Assembly (NCBI GenBank): GCA_030583865.1
Contig: CP129479.1
Span: 2,132,819 to 2,196,818, forward strand
Direction of reading: 5' to 3'
Source of the DNA: Thermodesulfobacteriota bacterium
Lineage (GTDB): Bacteria; Desulfobacterota; GWC2-55-46
DNA: 64,000 bases
Positions within the stretch are counted from its first letter, which is position 1. Each line of letters opens with the position of its first letter. Below the pieces are notes generated by a model. The model was given only the letters and a program-made list of their open reading frames with translations, made no database searches and was not told where the DNA came from. A program made the translations under genes and the position numbers. Positions 7,124 to 13,600 of the stretch are shown here, one piece after another.

Positions 7124-7750
7124 TTGAAACCTCTCCCATTGAAAAAGCGCCTCTTCGCCATCTTCTCCATTCTTTTAATGGCCCTCGCCGCCGTTGGCTG
7201 CGGTGAAACCCTCGACACTTTAATCGACCCCAGGGCGCAAAAAACCGCCAGCGCCAAGGCAACCCGCGAGTCTGAGACGGATTATTACGAGAAATTCTAT
7301 AAAGAGCTCGCTACCAGGGCGGTGATCCGAAAGGGGACAACCGATATACAGGCGCTTGACGCGCTGCCGAAGGACCCCTCGGGCGAGGTCAACTGGACCG
7401 CCGCGGTCATGGGAGGATATATAAACCCCAGGGGCTCCATCGACCCGGGGGCAGAGGAGGAACCGATACTTGACCTGAACGTCTTTATCGAGGCGAAGGT
7501 CCCCCTCATGTTCAACGTCCTGTTCCCGCACTCCATTCATACTTACTGGCTGAGCTGCAACAACTGCCATCCCAAGATATTCATCCCCGAGGTCGGCGCA
7601 AACCCGATAACGATGGACGAGATATTCCAGGGCCAGTGGTGCGGGAGGTGCCACGGCAAGGTCGCCTTCACCTTCTGGCCCAGGGACAACTGCGTAAGAT
7701 GCCATATAGTTAAGAAGGGCGAATCCCTTGAAAGGGAACGGTGGAGGTGA
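7124..7750 (+). CDS. Triheme c7-type cytochrome lipoprotein
   Basis: The 208-residue product starts at a TTG preceded by AGAAGG. A lipoprotein signal ends in VGC (lipidated C26). The C-terminal third holds three CxxCH haem sites (residues 145-149, 173-177 and 190-194), preceded by an FPHSIHTYW segment whose histidines are likely distal ligands. This spacing matches the c(7)-type triheme domain seen in periplasmic electron carriers of iron- and sulfur-reducing bacteria. It probably sits on the periplasmic face of a membrane and carries electrons for the downstream cytochrome system. Confidence 0.85.
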   Translation: MKPLPLKKRLFAIFSILLMALAAVGCGETLDTLIDPRAQKTASAKATRESETDYYEKFYKELATRAVIRKGTTDIQALDALPKDPSGEVNWTAAVMGGYINPRGSIDPGAEEEPILDLNVFIEAKVPLMFNVLFPHSIHTYWLSCNNCHPKIFIPEVGANPITMDEIFQGQWCGRCHGKVAFTFWPRDNCVRCHIVKKGESLERERWR

Positions 7751-7791
7751 CAAAACCCTGAATCCTCGAGCGGCGAAGAGGTCCAAACAGC

Positions 7792-7820
7792 TTGACTCGC
7801 CGGATTCAGCTGTGTAATAT
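7792..7820 (+). promoter_or_regulatory. Sigma-70-like promoter for the NHL lipoprotein gene
   Basis: TTGACT at 7792-7797, a 17-base spacer and TAATAT at 7815-7820 lie about 130 bases before the chosen start codon. Confidence 0.5.
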
Positions 7821-7952
7821 ATCCCCTGGCGGGAGCGGCATTCGCAAAATACCAGAACACCAGGTATCTTATAAAAACCGCCGTGGTCCTTTCGGCTACA
7901 GGCTATGGCAACCCATAATCATTATCATTTGAAAAGGAACGAGGAAGGCAAA

Positions 7953-9002
7953 ATGAGCAGATTCGCAAGGAAGCTTCTTTTCGTTTTGGCCGGCGCAATG
8001 ATACTCTACGGGTGCGCGCAGACAAACCCTCACGGCGACCTCTTCTGGCCCGAACCGCCTGACCAGCCCCGCATTAAATACGTAAGGGCCCACAGGGGCA
8101 CCGCCGACTTCTCCAAAAGCGGGGTCGCTGCCAGCCTGTTCCTAGGCGAGACCTCCGGGACGAACCTCAGCAAGCCCATGGGTGTGCACGTGGACAGGCA
8201 CGGAAAGGTCTTCGTGACCGACACGGCCAAATCCGACATCTTCGTCTTCGATGCAAAAAACTCGAAGGTGTTCACCTTGAGCGGCATGGGCGTAAAAATA
8301 TTCTACAAGCCCATAAGCGTGGTGACCGACGACTCCGACAGGATATTCGTCTCAGACTCCCAGGTCGACACCGTGACCGTCATCGCCCCGGACGGGAAGG
8401 TCATCGCGATATTAAAGCCCGAGGTCCCATTCCAGCAGCCCACTGGGCTGGCGGTCGACAATAAAAACAAAAAGCTTTATGTAATCGACACGCATACGCA
8501 CGACGTGAGGGTCTTCGACCTCGAAACGCTCAAGCAAATAAACACCATCGGGAAAAGGGGCAAGGAGGAAGGCGAATTCAACTTTCCGTCCCACATAGCC
8601 GTGGACGCAACCGGCAATATTTACGTCGTCGACACCATGAACGGCAGGATGCAGATATTCGATTCGGAAGGCAAGTTCATCAGGGCGTTCGGCCAGTTCG
8701 GGGACTCGCCCGGCATGTTCGCGCGGCCGAGGGGTGTCGCGCTCGACAGCGAGGGGCACCTGTATGTGGTGGATGCGGCCTTCAATAACGTCCAGATATT
8801 CAATGCTGAGGGACGGATACTCCTCGGCTTCTCGGGATACGGCAGCGGAAGGGGCGCGATGATACTCCCTGCCGGCATAGCCATCGACAACGAGGACCAT
8901 ATATATGTAGTCGACTCATGGAACTCGAGGGTAAACGTATACGAGTTCCTTGGCGAGAAATCAAAGGCAAGGGCCCAGGCCGCCCAGGTAAAGAAAAAAT
9001 AA
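7953..9002 (+). CDS. NHL-repeat six-bladed beta-propeller lipoprotein
   Basis: From the ATG at 7953, which has a GAGGAAGG ribosome site, the protein has 349 residues and a lipobox ending ILYGC (C21). The remainder is a series of about six NHL blades, each with a V(Y/F)VVD(T/S) strand and a GxF or G-rich turn, for example YVVDTMNGRMQIFD. Such propellers are protein-protein scaffolds on the cell envelope. NHL genes recur beside filament cytochrome genes in Geobacter-type clusters, so a role in assembling or anchoring the neighbouring cytochrome is inferred. An upstream ATG at 7905 is less likely. Confidence 0.85.
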   Translation: MSRFARKLLFVLAGAMILYGCAQTNPHGDLFWPEPPDQPRIKYVRAHRGTADFSKSGVAASLFLGETSGTNLSKPMGVHVDRHGKVFVTDTAKSDIFVFDAKNSKVFTLSGMGVKIFYKPISVVTDDSDRIFVSDSQVDTVTVIAPDGKVIAILKPEVPFQQPTGLAVDNKNKKLYVIDTHTHDVRVFDLETLKQINTIGKRGKEEGEFNFPSHIAVDATGNIYVVDTMNGRMQIFDSEGKFIRAFGQFGDSPGMFARPRGVALDSEGHLYVVDAAFNNVQIFNAEGRILLGFSGYGSGRGAMILPAGIAIDNEDHIYVVDSWNSRVNVYEFLGEKSKARAQAAQVKKK

Positions 9003-9020
9003 AAGCCCCAGCCCCTCAAA

Positions 9021-9049
9021 GGCCGCCCCTCCCGGGGCGGCCTTTTTTT
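9021..9049 (+). terminator. Rho-independent terminator after the NHL gene
   Basis: The stem GGCCGCCCC/GGGGCGGCC with a three-base loop is followed directly by seven T residues, 18 bases after the stop codon. Confidence 0.85.
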
Positions 9050-9127
9050 GGAACATATTGACTTATAAAGAAAAAACCCGGCCCACTGCCAGGCATATCC
9101 CCGGATTAAATTCAGATTAATTTTCCC

Positions 9128-9155
9128 TTGACAGCTTTTAATTTCGAGGTATAAT
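9128..9155 (+). promoter_or_regulatory. Strong sigma-70 promoter of the multihaem cytochrome gene
   Basis: Perfect consensus boxes, TTGACA (9128-9133) and TATAAT (9150-9155), are spaced by 16 bases. The predicted transcript start near 9162 leaves a leader of about 160 bases before the cytochrome ATG. Confidence 0.8.
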
Positions 9156-9218
9156 GGAGCTAACCTAAGTAGACTCGAGGGCTCACGGTGGGCCTTCAAA
9201 AGTTTTGCCGGCGACGAT

Positions 9219-9266
9219 GCCGCAATACTGCCGATGACGGCGGACAGTATTGACGGCCTTTTTTTT
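9219..9266 (+). terminator. Intrinsic terminator/attenuator inside the cytochrome leader
   Basis: GCCGCAATACTG (9219-9230) pairs with CAGTATTG-A-CGGC (9245-9257), with an inner CCG/CGG pairing, and is followed by eight T residues (9259-9266). It lies between the consensus promoter and the start codon, so full-length transcription must read through it. The 3' arm can also pair with a downstream GGCCGTC (GACGGCC/GGCCGTC around the T run). A short CGGC/GCCG hairpin just upstream overlaps the left arm. The combination suggests conditional termination. Confidence 0.6.
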
Positions 9267-9321
9267 GGCCGTCACGGACGATCTTCAAAACAACGAAAAA
9301 ACAAATCAAAGGAGTAGGATT

Positions 9322-10365
9322 ATGAAAAGGTTCACTCTCAGAAAAGCGCTCCTTACAGCCGCCGTCTTCACAGCCGCCGTCTGTACCGGAAGCGTCGTAA
9401 GCGCGACCGACTTCTCAACTGAATTCCAGGCCGGCTCCGCCGCGAACGGCATCGGTAAATCCAGGCACAACCTGGGAGCCTTGGGCGGTCCGATAGCGAC
9501 CCAGAACACCACCGAAATATGCGTGTTCTGTCACACCCCTCACCATTCCAACACGACCGGGTTCGCGGCTGGCGAAGCAGCTCCCCTTTGGAACAGGACC
9601 AACCAGTCCGCAACGCCTTACACCCCCTACGGCACGACTGCTGCAGGCACCACGATCACCCAGGTGGGCGGCGCGACACTGGCCTGTCTTAGCTGCCACG
9701 ACGGCGTAACGACCTTCGACAACCTCGTGAACGCGCCCGGCAAGGGTCTCAACACCGGCGACCAGGGTTGGACCTTCCAGATGGGTGTTCTGAGCGTAGG
9801 CAGCTACAGGGCCCCCGGCAACGGCCGCGACACACTCGGCTGTACCTACGGCTGCCACGGCGGCACCACCACGACCTTCGCTGTCAGCCAGATCGGCAGG
9901 CTCAACATCGGCACTGACCTCAGCAACGACCACCCGGTCTCCGTAACCTACTACGGCGCGGACCATGTCGATGGCGGCAGGGCGAGCCTCAGGGCCACCA
10001 CCACGGACATAGCCTCGATCGACCTCGCCTCTGACGTATGGTCGACCGCTCACAGCGCTGTCCAGGCCGGCGGCAACCTCACCCAGAACCGCTGGGCCGT
10101 AGGCGGTTTCGTGTCCGACACCGCGACCATCGCCGACCTCCTCAGGAACGACAAGGTCGAGTGCGTCAGCTGCCACGACCCGCACTTCAAGAACACCAGC
10201 TGGGATGAGGTCAAGCACACCTACCTCGACGGCTATGAGCACACCGGCAACAGCTGGTCCAACTGGTGCGGCAACAGCGGCGAAACCTGCACCGACGGTA
10301 TGTTCCTCAGAAGGGTCGGTGGAAACACGGGTTCCGGCGTTTGCAAGACCTGCCACGAGAAGTAA
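9322..10365 (+). CDS. Secreted multihaem c-type cytochrome, OmcE-like
   Basis: The 347-residue product starts at an ATG with an AAGGAG site and has a cleavable signal peptide ending near VVSATD. It carries four CxxCH motifs (C67, C122, C281, C341) and one CxxxCH (C174-H179). Nine further histidines, in segments such as SRHNLG, CHTPHHS and LSNDHPVS, are enough for bis-His ligation of five haems. The opening pattern (SRHNLG, then CVFCHTPHH, then APLWNR, CLSCHDG and GTDLSNDHP) resembles the OmcE-type extracellular filament cytochromes as I recall them. It has no lipobox or membrane anchor. Two extra cysteines (WCGNSGETC) may form a disulfide. Confidence 0.82.
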   Translation: MKRFTLRKALLTAAVFTAAVCTGSVVSATDFSTEFQAGSAANGIGKSRHNLGALGGPIATQNTTEICVFCHTPHHSNTTGFAAGEAAPLWNRTNQSATPYTPYGTTAAGTTITQVGGATLACLSCHDGVTTFDNLVNAPGKGLNTGDQGWTFQMGVLSVGSYRAPGNGRDTLGCTYGCHGGTTTTFAVSQIGRLNIGTDLSNDHPVSVTYYGADHVDGGRASLRATTTDIASIDLASDVWSTAHSAVQAGGNLTQNRWAVGGFVSDTATIADLLRNDKVECVSCHDPHFKNTSWDEVKHTYLDGYEHTGNSWSNWCGNSGETCTDGMFLRRVGGNTGSGVCKTCHEK

Positions 10366-10405
10366 AACAGCCCGCGCCTGAAAGGGCGCTCGGTTGAGAG
10401 TTGAA

Positions 10406-10438
10406 GAAGGGCCGGCTATATGCCGGCCCTTCTTTTTT
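10406..10438 (+). terminator. Rho-independent terminator after the multihaem cytochrome gene
   Basis: GAAGGGCCGGC and GCCGGCCCTTC form an 11-base-pair stem around a TATAT loop and are followed by a T run. This isolates the cytochrome as its own transcription unit. Confidence 0.9.
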
Positions 10439-10934
10439 ATTCCGCCTTTTCCCGCCCTGTCCTTGAATCAACCAAATCCTTGCCTGCAAGCACGTGAGTG
10501 CAGGCGCAGAGGGATACCAGCTCGATAACGCCTTGTGCAACCGAGCCGTCAGGATTCCGGCCATGACTGTCCTAAATCCGCGTAGCGGCGCAGACCTCCA
10601 TTGTGCAACCCCAAAAAATGCCATTTTTCCGGCTTTCCGGGACTCGGGAATAAAAAGCCGAGCAAATTGACGGATCAGCATGCGTTTATTCACATTCAGG
10701 TCGCCTTATTAAAAATTTTTAATAACCCGATAACCCATGTTTTAAGCAAAAAAGGCTAAGATGGCCCTGAACCATACCATGCCAATCGGTAGGATATCGC
10801 GTCGGCTTTTTTCGTTTCCTAAGGTCCGCGGCTTAAGGAGGCACCCCGGGGAAAATACGGCGGAACGCCTGAAAAATGTTTTATATTCCCGAGCTTTGTA
10901 TTATAATGCAGCCCATAAAAACGGAGGTTCTCAT
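10439..10934. other. Non-coding gap with a decayed C1-like repeat
   Basis: No convincing gene is seen. Bases about 10612-10700 contain GGGAATAAAAAGCCGAGCA and a following CATGCGTTTATTCAC, which match the core of repeat C1 in degenerate form. A TATAAT at 10902-10907 is a plausible -10 box for the foldase gene, with a poor -35. The rest shows no structure I can assign. Confidence 0.45.
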
Positions 10935-11954
10935 ATGATGCGTCCATTCCTGGGTTCTTTATTGGCCTCAGTCTCCGCCGTGCTTATCGCCTTCTCGCCG
11001 GCCGGAGCAGAACAGAACTATCAACTGCTCGGCCCTACTGACGCGGTAGCCAAGGTGAACGGAGTAACCATCACCAAGGGGCAGCTCGAAGGGACCATGA
11101 ACAAGCTGCTCCCCTTCATGACATATCATAGTTCTGTCTCTGACGAGCGTTATATCAAGATACAGAAAAAAGCGCTCAATACCCTGATAGAGACGGAGCT
11201 CATCTACGATTTCGCGAAAAAGAACAAGCTGGACAAGGTCGAAAAAAAGGAACTTGACAAGGCTGTAAGCGACGTCAAGAAGAACGTGCCCAAGGGGGAC
11301 AGCTTCGAAAAGGTGCTTAAAAGGAGCAACATGACCGTGAACGACCTGCGCGAAATGCTGAAGAAGGAGCGCGTGGTCACCAAGATTTCGGCTGAGAAGA
11401 GGGACGAGTTCGAGAAGAAGGCTTTTGAGGCGGTTACAGAGGAGTTCATGAGGGACTACTACAACAAGAACAAGGAAAAGTTCATGGAGCCCGAGAAGCT
11501 GCATTTAAGGTCCATCCTCGTCAAGGCCGACCCGGGCGGCGGCGCCGTCGTCTGGAACGAGTCCAAGAGGAAGGCCGAGGAGATACTGAAACAGGCGAAA
11601 TCGGGCAAGGACTTTGCCAAGCTGGCGGAAGAGTTCTCCGAGGACCCTTACGCCAAAACCGGCGGGGACATGGGCTGGGCCCACGTGGGCAGCATATTCG
11701 AGGAGATCGAGGAGGCGGTGGAAACCGCGGAAGTGGGCAAGATGCTCGGGCCCGTGATGACCATACACGGCTATCACCTGATAAAGGTCGAGGGCCGCAA
11801 GCCACCGGTCCAGAAGAAATTCGAGGAGCTCGACATCGAGAAGCTGAATTTCGACCTCAGGCAGAAAGAGCACAGGAAATACTGGAGCGACTGGATGAAA
11901 GGCATGATGGACGCCGCGAAGATCGAGTACGTGCTCGAATCCCTGAAAGAGTAG
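10935..11954 (+). CDS. PpiC/SurA-type periplasmic peptidyl-prolyl isomerase
   Basis: The 339-residue protein starts at an ATG with a GGAGG site; reading further upstream would destroy the signal peptide. The signal ends about AGAEQ. An N-terminal SurA-like helical chaperone region follows (about 25-175). A parvulin domain (about 190-295) contains LHLRSILVK, FAKLAEEFSEDPYAKTGGDMGW and GYHLIKVEGR. It would assist folding of secreted proteins. Its position directly after the multihaem cytochrome mirrors PpiC genes beside filament cytochromes elsewhere, suggesting a dedicated foldase for haem proteins or the barrel encoded downstream. Confidence 0.9.
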   Translation: MMRPFLGSLLASVSAVLIAFSPAGAEQNYQLLGPTDAVAKVNGVTITKGQLEGTMNKLLPFMTYHSSVSDERYIKIQKKALNTLIETELIYDFAKKNKLDKVEKKELDKAVSDVKKNVPKGDSFEKVLKRSNMTVNDLREMLKKERVVTKISAEKRDEFEKKAFEAVTEEFMRDYYNKNKEKFMEPEKLHLRSILVKADPGGGAVVWNESKRKAEEILKQAKSGKDFAKLAEEFSEDPYAKTGGDMGWAHVGSIFEEIEEAVETAEVGKMLGPVMTIHGYHLIKVEGRKPPVQKKFEELDIEKLNFDLRQKEHRKYWSDWMKGMMDAAKIEYVLESLKE

Positions 11955-12102
11955 CCCCGGGTCCCCGGTCTGGCGGCCAAGTCCATTGCCGGGGACCAAA
12001 TCAAGACCAAGAGCTTCGGTTGGGCTCGCGTCCAGTCCATACGGTTCGCAATCGAAGCCCTAATCGCCTTCATTTAACATCAGCATCGAAGGAACGAGAC
12101 GC

Positions 12103-12594
12103 ATGAGCGATCCTGTAAACAGGAAACCACGGGCCGGCGCGGTTTTTGCCGCGGCTGCGCTGGCTGTTATCGCCGCGCTGGCAATCGGCTGCTCAGGAGG
12201 GAGCTCCGCGCCCGGCAACGGCCCCAAAAAGCCGGCGAGGACTGATCTCGCCCAGGGCGAGGAGGTCTACTTCAGGTATTGCCACTTCTGCCACGGCCGC
12301 AAGGGGTACGGAGACGGCCCGGTCGGGATAGCGCTAACACCACACCCCGCTAACTTCGTCGAGGACAGGAAGAGAATGGCCAAGACCGACCTGGAGATGT
12401 TCGACTCCATAACGGAAGGCATACACAAGGACATCGGCGGAGAGGCCATGTCCATGCCGAGGTGGCAGGAGATTTTGACCGACGAGGAGCGATGGAACGT
12501 GCTCGCATATATCAGGCACCTCGAAAAAGAGGGCCTCAAGGCCCTGGAGGCAGAGGGCCTGCCCGCCGCCACGGAGGGCGCTGATGAGAAATAG
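12103..12594 (+). CDS. Monohaem class I cytochrome c lipoprotein
   Basis: The 163-residue product has a lipobox ending AIGC (C30), one CHFCH haem motif (60-64) and a distal MPRW methionine (M118), as in small class I cytochromes c. The C-terminal helix is EERWNVLAYIRHLEK. It is probably a membrane-tethered periplasmic electron shuttle. Its last 11 bases overlap the start of the next gene in a different frame, so the two are co-translated. Confidence 0.9.
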   Translation: MSDPVNRKPRAGAVFAAAALAVIAALAIGCSGGSSAPGNGPKKPARTDLAQGEEVYFRYCHFCHGRKGYGDGPVGIALTPHPANFVEDRKRMAKTDLEMFDSITEGIHKDIGGEAMSMPRWQEILTDEERWNVLAYIRHLEKEGLKALEAEGLPAATEGADEK

Positions 12595-13600
12595 CTCCAA
12601 GGGCATCATAGCGGCGCTATTCCTGGCGTCGGCAGCCGCAGGAGTAAACGGGCTCGCCGGGCAGTCCGGCGACTACGACCCGGTCACCGGCGAGCCTGAC
12701 TGCACCAAATGCCATACCCCGGACCGGCGGTACTCGATCGACTACACGAGGGACGACACCTGCGCCGAGTGCCACGGGCCGGGCCTGAGCGAAAGCTATC
12801 TCGATATTAACGAGAGGTACGGGTCGCCACACGGCGCGGAAGAGGCGGACAAGTACGCCAGGGCCGCGGCAAAGGCGGAGGAGAGGAAGAAATCCCCCGC
12901 AAAAGGCCCCTCGGCGGCCCCCGAGGGCATGGTCCTGGTGCCTGCCGGCGAGTTCACGATGGGCTCTGACGACTGGTGGCCCAAGAGCCAGCCCGAGCAC
13001 AAGGTCAGGCTGGACTCGTTCTATATCGACAGGTACGAAGTCACCAACAAGCGGTTCAAGCGGTTTGTGGACGCGACCGGCCGCTCCCATCCTGACCACT
13101 GGAAAGACGGCCGCATACCCGACGGCAAGGAAGACCACCCGGTGGTGTACGTGAGCTGGGCCGACGCCGACGCCTTCTGCAAATGGGAGGGCAAAAGGCT
13201 CCCGACCGAGCAGGAATGGGAGAAGGCCGCAAGGGGCACCGACGGCAGGACCTTCCCCTGGGGCGACAAGTTCGACAGGAACAAGGGCAACACCCCCCAG
13301 TACGGGAACGAGGACACGCTGCCTGTCGGGAGCTTCGAGGACGGCAAGAGCCCGTATGGCGTGTACGACATGGCCGGCAACGCCTTCGAATGGACCGACA
13401 GCTGGTTCAAGCCCCATCCCGGGAATACCCACGAGGACGAGAACTACGGCGAGATATACAAGGTCCTTAAAGGCGGCTCCTGGTACGACTGCACCTATTA
13501 CAAGTGCGGCATCAGCGCCCCGGTTTTCAACAGGATATTTTTCCATACTCTGACGAGGAATAACAACTTTGGCTTCAGGTGCGCAAAAGACGCAAGATAG
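12584..13600 (+). CDS. Dihaem cytochrome fused to a formylglycine-generating-enzyme (FGE/SUMF1) domain
   Basis: The 338-residue protein has an N-terminal signal, two CxxCH haem sites (40-44 and 60-64), an Ala/Lys/Glu-rich linker (about 85-112) and a full FGE-type domain (about 113-335). That domain contains MVLVPAGEFTMGS, RLPTEQEWEKAARG, DMAGNAFEWT and GFRCA. Unlike most FGE-fold relatives it keeps a C-x4-C pair (C303 and C308) right after GGSW, at the place of the copper-binding catalytic cysteines of true FGEs. No sulfatase gene is present in the window. The start overlaps the previous gene by 11 bases. Confidence 0.85.
   Translation: MRNSSKGIIAALFLASAAAGVNGLAGQSGDYDPVTGEPDCTKCHTPDRRYSIDYTRDDTCAECHGPGLSESYLDINERYGSPHGAEEADKYARAAAKAEERKKSPAKGPSAAPEGMVLVPAGEFTMGSDDWWPKSQPEHKVRLDSFYIDRYEVTNKRFKRFVDATGRSHPDHWKDGRIPDGKEDHPVVYVSWADADAFCKWEGKRLPTEQEWEKAARGTDGRTFPWGDKFDRNKGNTPQYGNEDTLPVGSFEDGKSPYGVYDMAGNAFEWTDSWFKPHPGNTHEDENYGEIYKVLKGGSWYDCTYYKCGISAPVFNRIFFHTLTRNNNFGFRCAKDAR

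Follow-up and report, generated by a model that had tools for sequence, protein, structure and literature searches.

The window, by which we mean the whole analyzed stretch of 64,000 nucleotides at G000:C1:2132819-2196818, encodes an OmcE-like extracellular cytochrome preceded by a promoter and a leader that carries an intrinsic terminator. The gene sits in a cluster (7124-13600) of cytochromes, an NHL beta-propeller, a SurA-like isomerase, and an FGE-sulfatase-like protein. The features of the locus are listed below, in window positions.

9128-9155, + strand: sigma-70 type promoter, TTGACA-N16-TATAAT (12/12 matches; hexamers invariant in 10 aligned leaders)
9162-9266, + strand: conserved structured RNA, riboswitch-like, running from roughly the putative transcription start through the U-tract (model R2, 89 bits, E 2.7e-17 in its own genome)
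9171-9205, + strand: P1 stem, 9171-9175/9201-9205, enclosing P2 (5/5 pairs with two-sided changes; 75.8% of cells paired)
9177-9197, + strand: P2 hairpin with the conserved CUCANGRNGGG, in the window CUCACGGUGGG at 9182-9192 (8/8 pairs with two-sided changes; 89.0% paired)
9209-9222, + strand: P3, the GGCNANGRNUGCC element, a proposed antiterminator hairpin, 9209-9212/9219-9222 (near-invariant letters; pairing inferred)
9219-9257, + strand: P4, intrinsic terminator stem, 9219-9230/9245-9257 plus an inner CCG/CGG (covariance-model helices 3 and 4, 88.6% and 81.2% paired)
9251-9274, + strand: P5, downstream inverted repeat in which the terminator 3' arm pairs with GGCCGTCA (minimum-free-energy fold; repeat survey in cytochrome copies)
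9259-9266, + strand: U-tract of eight T, read from the sequence (U-run of at least 5 in 85/88 copies)
9310-9314, + strand: Shine-Dalgarno AGGAG, read from the sequence
9322-10365, + strand: OmcE-like tetrahaem extracellular cytochrome, 347 aa (4 CxxCH; Pfam PF09699; PDB 7tfs_A, E 2.7e-14, which we take to be the OmcE filament)

A promoter scan of the window placed the -35 hexamer TTGACA at 9128-9133 and the -10 hexamer TATAAT at 9150-9155, with a spacer of 16 nt. The first-pass annotation had described a perfect sigma-70 promoter, about 57 bases of structured RNA, and an eight-T terminator, all before the start codon, and each of these claims held: the promoter matches at every position, the RNA model starts at 9162, the P4 hairpin starts 57 nt further on, the terminator with its U-tract occupies 9219-9266, and the start codon lies at 9322. 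Its reading of an attenuator-like leader of the cytochrome gene is likewise supported, with regulation and the transcript start remaining inferences. The leader, beginning near 9162, is about 105 nt long, and taken as 115 nt it folded at -47.7 kcal/mol, compared with -33.0 +/- 3.4 kcal/mol for shuffled sequences (z -4.3). P4 was obtained from folding and from the covariance model; a simple terminator scan of the window did not list it, probably because the hairpin has a bulge and an irregular top that go beyond what that scan allows.

Matches to the leader DNA were found in 10 of 59 relatives (own genome counted), representing six genera. From these ten leaders we built a covariance model, R1; a second, R2, was built from 81 matches, and a third, R3, covered the aptamer only, with 61 of 67 representatives aligned for it. 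The searches yielded 90 model matches, of which 89 were classified, since L033 and L071 are the same place; the 89 still include two matches on truncated contigs and three weak ones without an assigned gene (L277, L125, L100). The structure alignment comprised 88 distinct rows.

The copies share one anatomy: P1 encloses P2, which is capped by CUCANGRNGGG, and is followed by the GGCNANGRNUGCC element and then by the terminator P4. UCANGRNGG was present in 76 of the 88 copies and the second core element (as GGYNAN..GCC) in 82, while P1, judged by eye, was weak or absent in many of the copies preceding cyclase genes, described below. The first-pass annotation had proposed covariance analysis over homologous leaders as a check, and the result was strong covariation in a structure conserved among relatives. 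Across the distinct copies, 86.1% of cells were paired, against 68.1% in shuffles; the covariation score was 0.435, against 0.170 +/- 0.007 in 500 shuffles and no more than 0.113 with slid partners; and two-sided changes supported 25 of the 28 modelled base pairs. All 11 of the strongest column couplings corresponded to predicted pairs, with no extra pseudoknot among them. Alignments made with such models are biased toward the structure used to fit them; RNAalifold, applied to a MAFFT alignment that was not structure-fitted, found two-sided changes at 6 pairs. The leader is an RNA of conserved structure, with covariation in its P1, P2, and P4 helices.

The overlapping alternative pairings that had been noticed on both sides of the terminator were also confirmed. 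The GCC closing GGCNANGRNUGCC forms the first three letters of the terminator 5' arm, so the core hairpin and the terminator would exclude each other. Upstream, P3 (9209-9212/9219-9222) takes up the 5' arm, which is inferred to deprive the terminator of the G+C-rich base beside its U-tract; downstream, P5 (9251-9258/9267-9274) takes up the 3' arm. In the window, the fold with P3 enforced had an energy of -35.2 kcal/mol, against -38.5 kcal/mol for the free fold, and this gap of 3.3 kcal/mol is one that ligand binding could conceivably pay. Covariation does not prove the P3 pairing, which remains an inference because GGC and GCC hardly vary. Among 62 cytochrome copies, 23 have a P5 of at least 9 bp that includes 3 or more G/C. 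In the window's genus P5 measures 8 bp, and its pair A9253-T9272 is replaced by G-C in one relative (L051); it may pair with the terminator 3' arm after read-through. Many relatives conserve this inverted repeat, which spans the terminator 3' arm and the U-tract, in the form GGCAUUUUUU...AAAAAAUGCC. Two criteria of a transcriptional riboswitch are met by this layout: related genes have a conserved structured domain in their 5' leaders, and the terminator platform has a strand in common with that domain.

The RNA is narrowly distributed. R1 detected it in 27 of the 30 family genomes and in 32 of the 48 order genomes. A phylum-wide sample of 395 genomes, which doubled as a negative control for R2, contained it in 10 genomes, all within the window's own class; there, 9 of the 10 cytochrome-bearing genomes had it, against 1 of the 385 others (Fisher p 2e-16, ignoring shared ancestry). 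The window's own genome gave exactly three R2 matches at E up to 10, two before cytochromes and one before a cyclase. A pattern scan of named genomes, which served to supply names of carriers and not a census, returned at least 117 stretches. R2, run on 80 of them, recognized 12 true matches, the others scoring below 19 bits, and all 12 were metagenome-assembled genomes titled Deltaproteobacteria or Proteobacteria bacterium (for example, Deltaproteobacteria bacterium UBA5799 and H5_GWC). Searching the 30 family genomes with R3 revealed no further gene class: the five borderline places examined (L329-L333) look like chance, and one more match (G018:C341, L327) had no assigned gene.

The genes downstream fall almost entirely into two families. 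A sequence pattern assigned 62 of the 89 copies to an OmcE-like cytochrome and 18 to a protein with PocR, GAF, and GGDEF domains, leaving 9 with neither. Inspection by eye added L122 and L120, one to each class, giving 63/89 and 19/89. The other seven comprise two at contig ends (L070, L090), two before a SurA-like gene adjoining a cytochrome, and the three weak unassigned matches. Conversely, 26 of the 30 best cytochrome loci carried the RNA. A sigma-70 promoter was found in at least 48 of the 62 cytochrome copies, a lower bound, as the promoter pattern misses likely promoters (e.g., those of the G035 and G038 copies). The -10 element ends 6-7 nt ahead of the RNA in 35 of 51 promoter-bearing copies, from which we infer that the RNA should begin with the transcript. 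Tandem copies of the RNA precede a single cytochrome gene in G016 and probably also in G019 and G026 (L113 2399-2577, L111 1508-1688, L328).

The second target is a putative signal-making enzyme, whose representative in the window's own genome has the Pfam domains PocR, GAF, and GGDEF. Of 18 cyclases, all have GGEEF and 17 showed the canonical GGDEF aspartate, the pattern having missed the eighteenth. This aspartate marks the use of guanine, and the behavior of WspR D226S is consistent with such a role (PMC6456294). Given these residues, the cyclases are probably ordinary makers of c-di-GMP and not Hypr enzymes, a reading made from sequence alone. Among 25 cyclase orthologs with readable upstream DNA, 19 had the RNA and 6 lacked it; three orthologs at contig ends and two with partial RNA matches were left out of this count. 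No recognizable sigma-70 promoter preceded any of the 18 cyclase copies. At one locus (cyclase gene at L083, 2900-4465), secD/secF-like genes (named by eye) come first, then the RNA, and then the cyclase gene.

The RNA corresponds to no family that we could recognize. At the gathering score, Rfam 15 placed no family over the leader, and at E up to 10 it returned only noise, in support of the earlier suggestion, made when no GEMM consensus could be matched, of a different or unknown class. A resemblance to the fluoride riboswitch in sequence letters received no support from Rfam. The GEMM-I model (RF01051) likewise gave no match over the leader, though it finds true copies elsewhere: 30 of the 59 relatives carry GEMM-I, 25 of them with scores above the cut-off, and the window's own genome has it once (G000:C1:1261458-1261592; L256 1501-1635), before an Fn3-like secreted protein. 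In the loci scanned, no GEMM-I preceded the orthologous cytochromes or cyclases, and no relative had GEMM-I in place of the RNA. The GEMM-I copies of the relatives differ, CAGGGCAAAC or CAGAGCAAAC, at one position, which we take to be the one that sets the choice between c-di-GMP and cGAMP.

The new leader resembles GEMM-I and the cGAMP-binding GEMM-Ib in combining a leader RNA with a terminator and in occurring in tandem; it differs in having no match to them in sequence or structure and in coexisting with a separate GEMM-I in the same genome. In Geobacter, GEMM-I-type cyclic-dinucleotide riboswitches turn on extracellular multihaem cytochromes, some of them in tandem, with the ligand acting as the ON signal (PMC6456294), and omcE-like genes are affected by the c-di-GMP level (PMC12285248). 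Parallel RNA solutions for one ligand exist: the c-di-GMP-II riboswitch (RF01786) is a second, unrelated class for c-di-GMP, and our leader differs from it, too, in giving no Rfam match. As a lineage-restricted, covarying leader whose ligand is unknown, it resembles orphan riboswitch candidates such as the EAL-gene motif of Thioalkalivibrio and Pseudomon-GGDEF (PMC2864571, PMC11109978), but those come from other taxa, and the word "cytochrome" is absent from both main texts. Leaders that control a terminator are a known kind of device; this class appears to be new, being absent from Rfam 15 and undescribed in the open-licence PMC literature searched.

We therefore propose, with a probability of roughly 0.65, that the leader belongs to an undescribed class of cis-regulatory RNA that acts like an ON riboswitch through transcription antitermination; this is inferred, without expression, probing, or binding data. 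Without its ligand, the core GCCG would pair with the CGGC beside the U-tract, the terminator would form, and transcription would end with the release of a short RNA, roughly 105 nt long. With the ligand bound, the P2 loop and the GGCNANGRNUGCC element would fold together, P3 would keep GCCG and so withdraw the terminator base from the U-tract, and the polymerase would continue into the cytochrome gene. Several points speak against this explanation, namely the six cyclase orthologs that lack the RNA, the absence of recognized promoters before the cyclase copies, the many of these without P1, the unproved P3, the bias of model-made alignments, and the want, among the loci scanned, of a relative with GEMM-I standing in for the RNA at an orthologous gene.

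The identity of the ligand is more tentative. Because the other regulated gene encodes a PocR-GAF-GGDEF cyclase with canonical residues, we suggest c-di-GMP or another cyclic dinucleotide, a guess that, lacking binding data, we hold at less than even odds. The first-pass annotation had pointed to cyclic dinucleotides through related bacteria, and the copies before the diguanylate cyclase lend this only circumstantial support; with two main downstream gene families in all, the guess hangs on one of them. Were c-di-GMP the ligand, synthesis of the signal and production of nanowire cytochromes would be coupled.

The same device could instead answer to another ligand, such as a metal ion, heme, a redox metabolite, or whatever the PocR domain binds, and this alternative remains possible. 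Most copies (63/89) stand before cytochrome genes, so that the cyclase could be one target among several responses to electron acceptors, and these genomes already have GEMM-I for cyclic-dinucleotide signalling; against it, no gene for metal or heme transport or synthesis was found downstream of the copies, and the second target is an enzyme of the c-di-GMP type. It is less likely that the terminator is governed by a protein bound to the conserved hairpins, through protein-dependent antitermination or attenuation. The compact conserved loops and small size would suit an aptamer and a protein site equally, but the two separate conserved elements are aptamer-like, and CsrA/RsmE is improbable, as the GGA in a hairpin loop that defines its sites occurs in the P2 loop of only 6 of 88 copies.

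Less likely again is a small RNA acting in trans: the terminated transcript, about 105 nt long, would itself be the functional product, and the cytochrome gene would be read by leakage. A discrete RNA framed by promoter and terminator, with several paralogous copies per genome, would fit this view, whereas placement directly before two gene families, kept across genera, and the shared-strand switch layout fit control in cis. Two further explanations can be all but set aside. If the leader were a diverged member of GEMM-I or of another known riboswitch family, gene targets resembling those of Geobacter GEMM-Ib would be accounted for, but nothing in Rfam matches the leader at the gathering score, and the true GEMM-I copies of these genomes look different. 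Leader-peptide attenuation coupled to translation would draw on the AUG found in the P2 loop of 40 of 90 copies; the same triplet is ACG in 26/90 and AAG in 18/90, and reading frames, by eye, are not kept between genera, so that the conserved short reading frame expected of such an attenuator is missing.

Returning to the riboswitch-like reading, the likeness of the targets to those of GEMM-I-type RNAs in Geobacter, the cyclase as a further target, and the unrelated structure lead us to propose a new orphan riboswitch class with c-di-GMP as the candidate ligand. In its boldest form, which we consider rather more likely to fail than to hold and which no binding data support, this would be a structurally unrelated c-di-GMP riboswitch class that is confined to one uncultured 'Deltaproteobacteria' class, switches on nanowire cytochromes of the OmcE type, and, by way of the cyclase copy, exerts feedback on the signal that it senses. 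Binding of a cyclic dinucleotide would make the RNA one more independent way of sensing that signal, and it could serve as a ready-made sensor; binding of something else would reveal the cue that controls nanowire production in an uncultured lineage. The target set is tight, consisting of nanowire-type extracellular cytochromes and one signal-making enzyme, and about 90 copies provide a sharp consensus for in vitro tests. In one genome (L026, G021:C53), five or more OmcE-like cytochrome genes stand in tandem.
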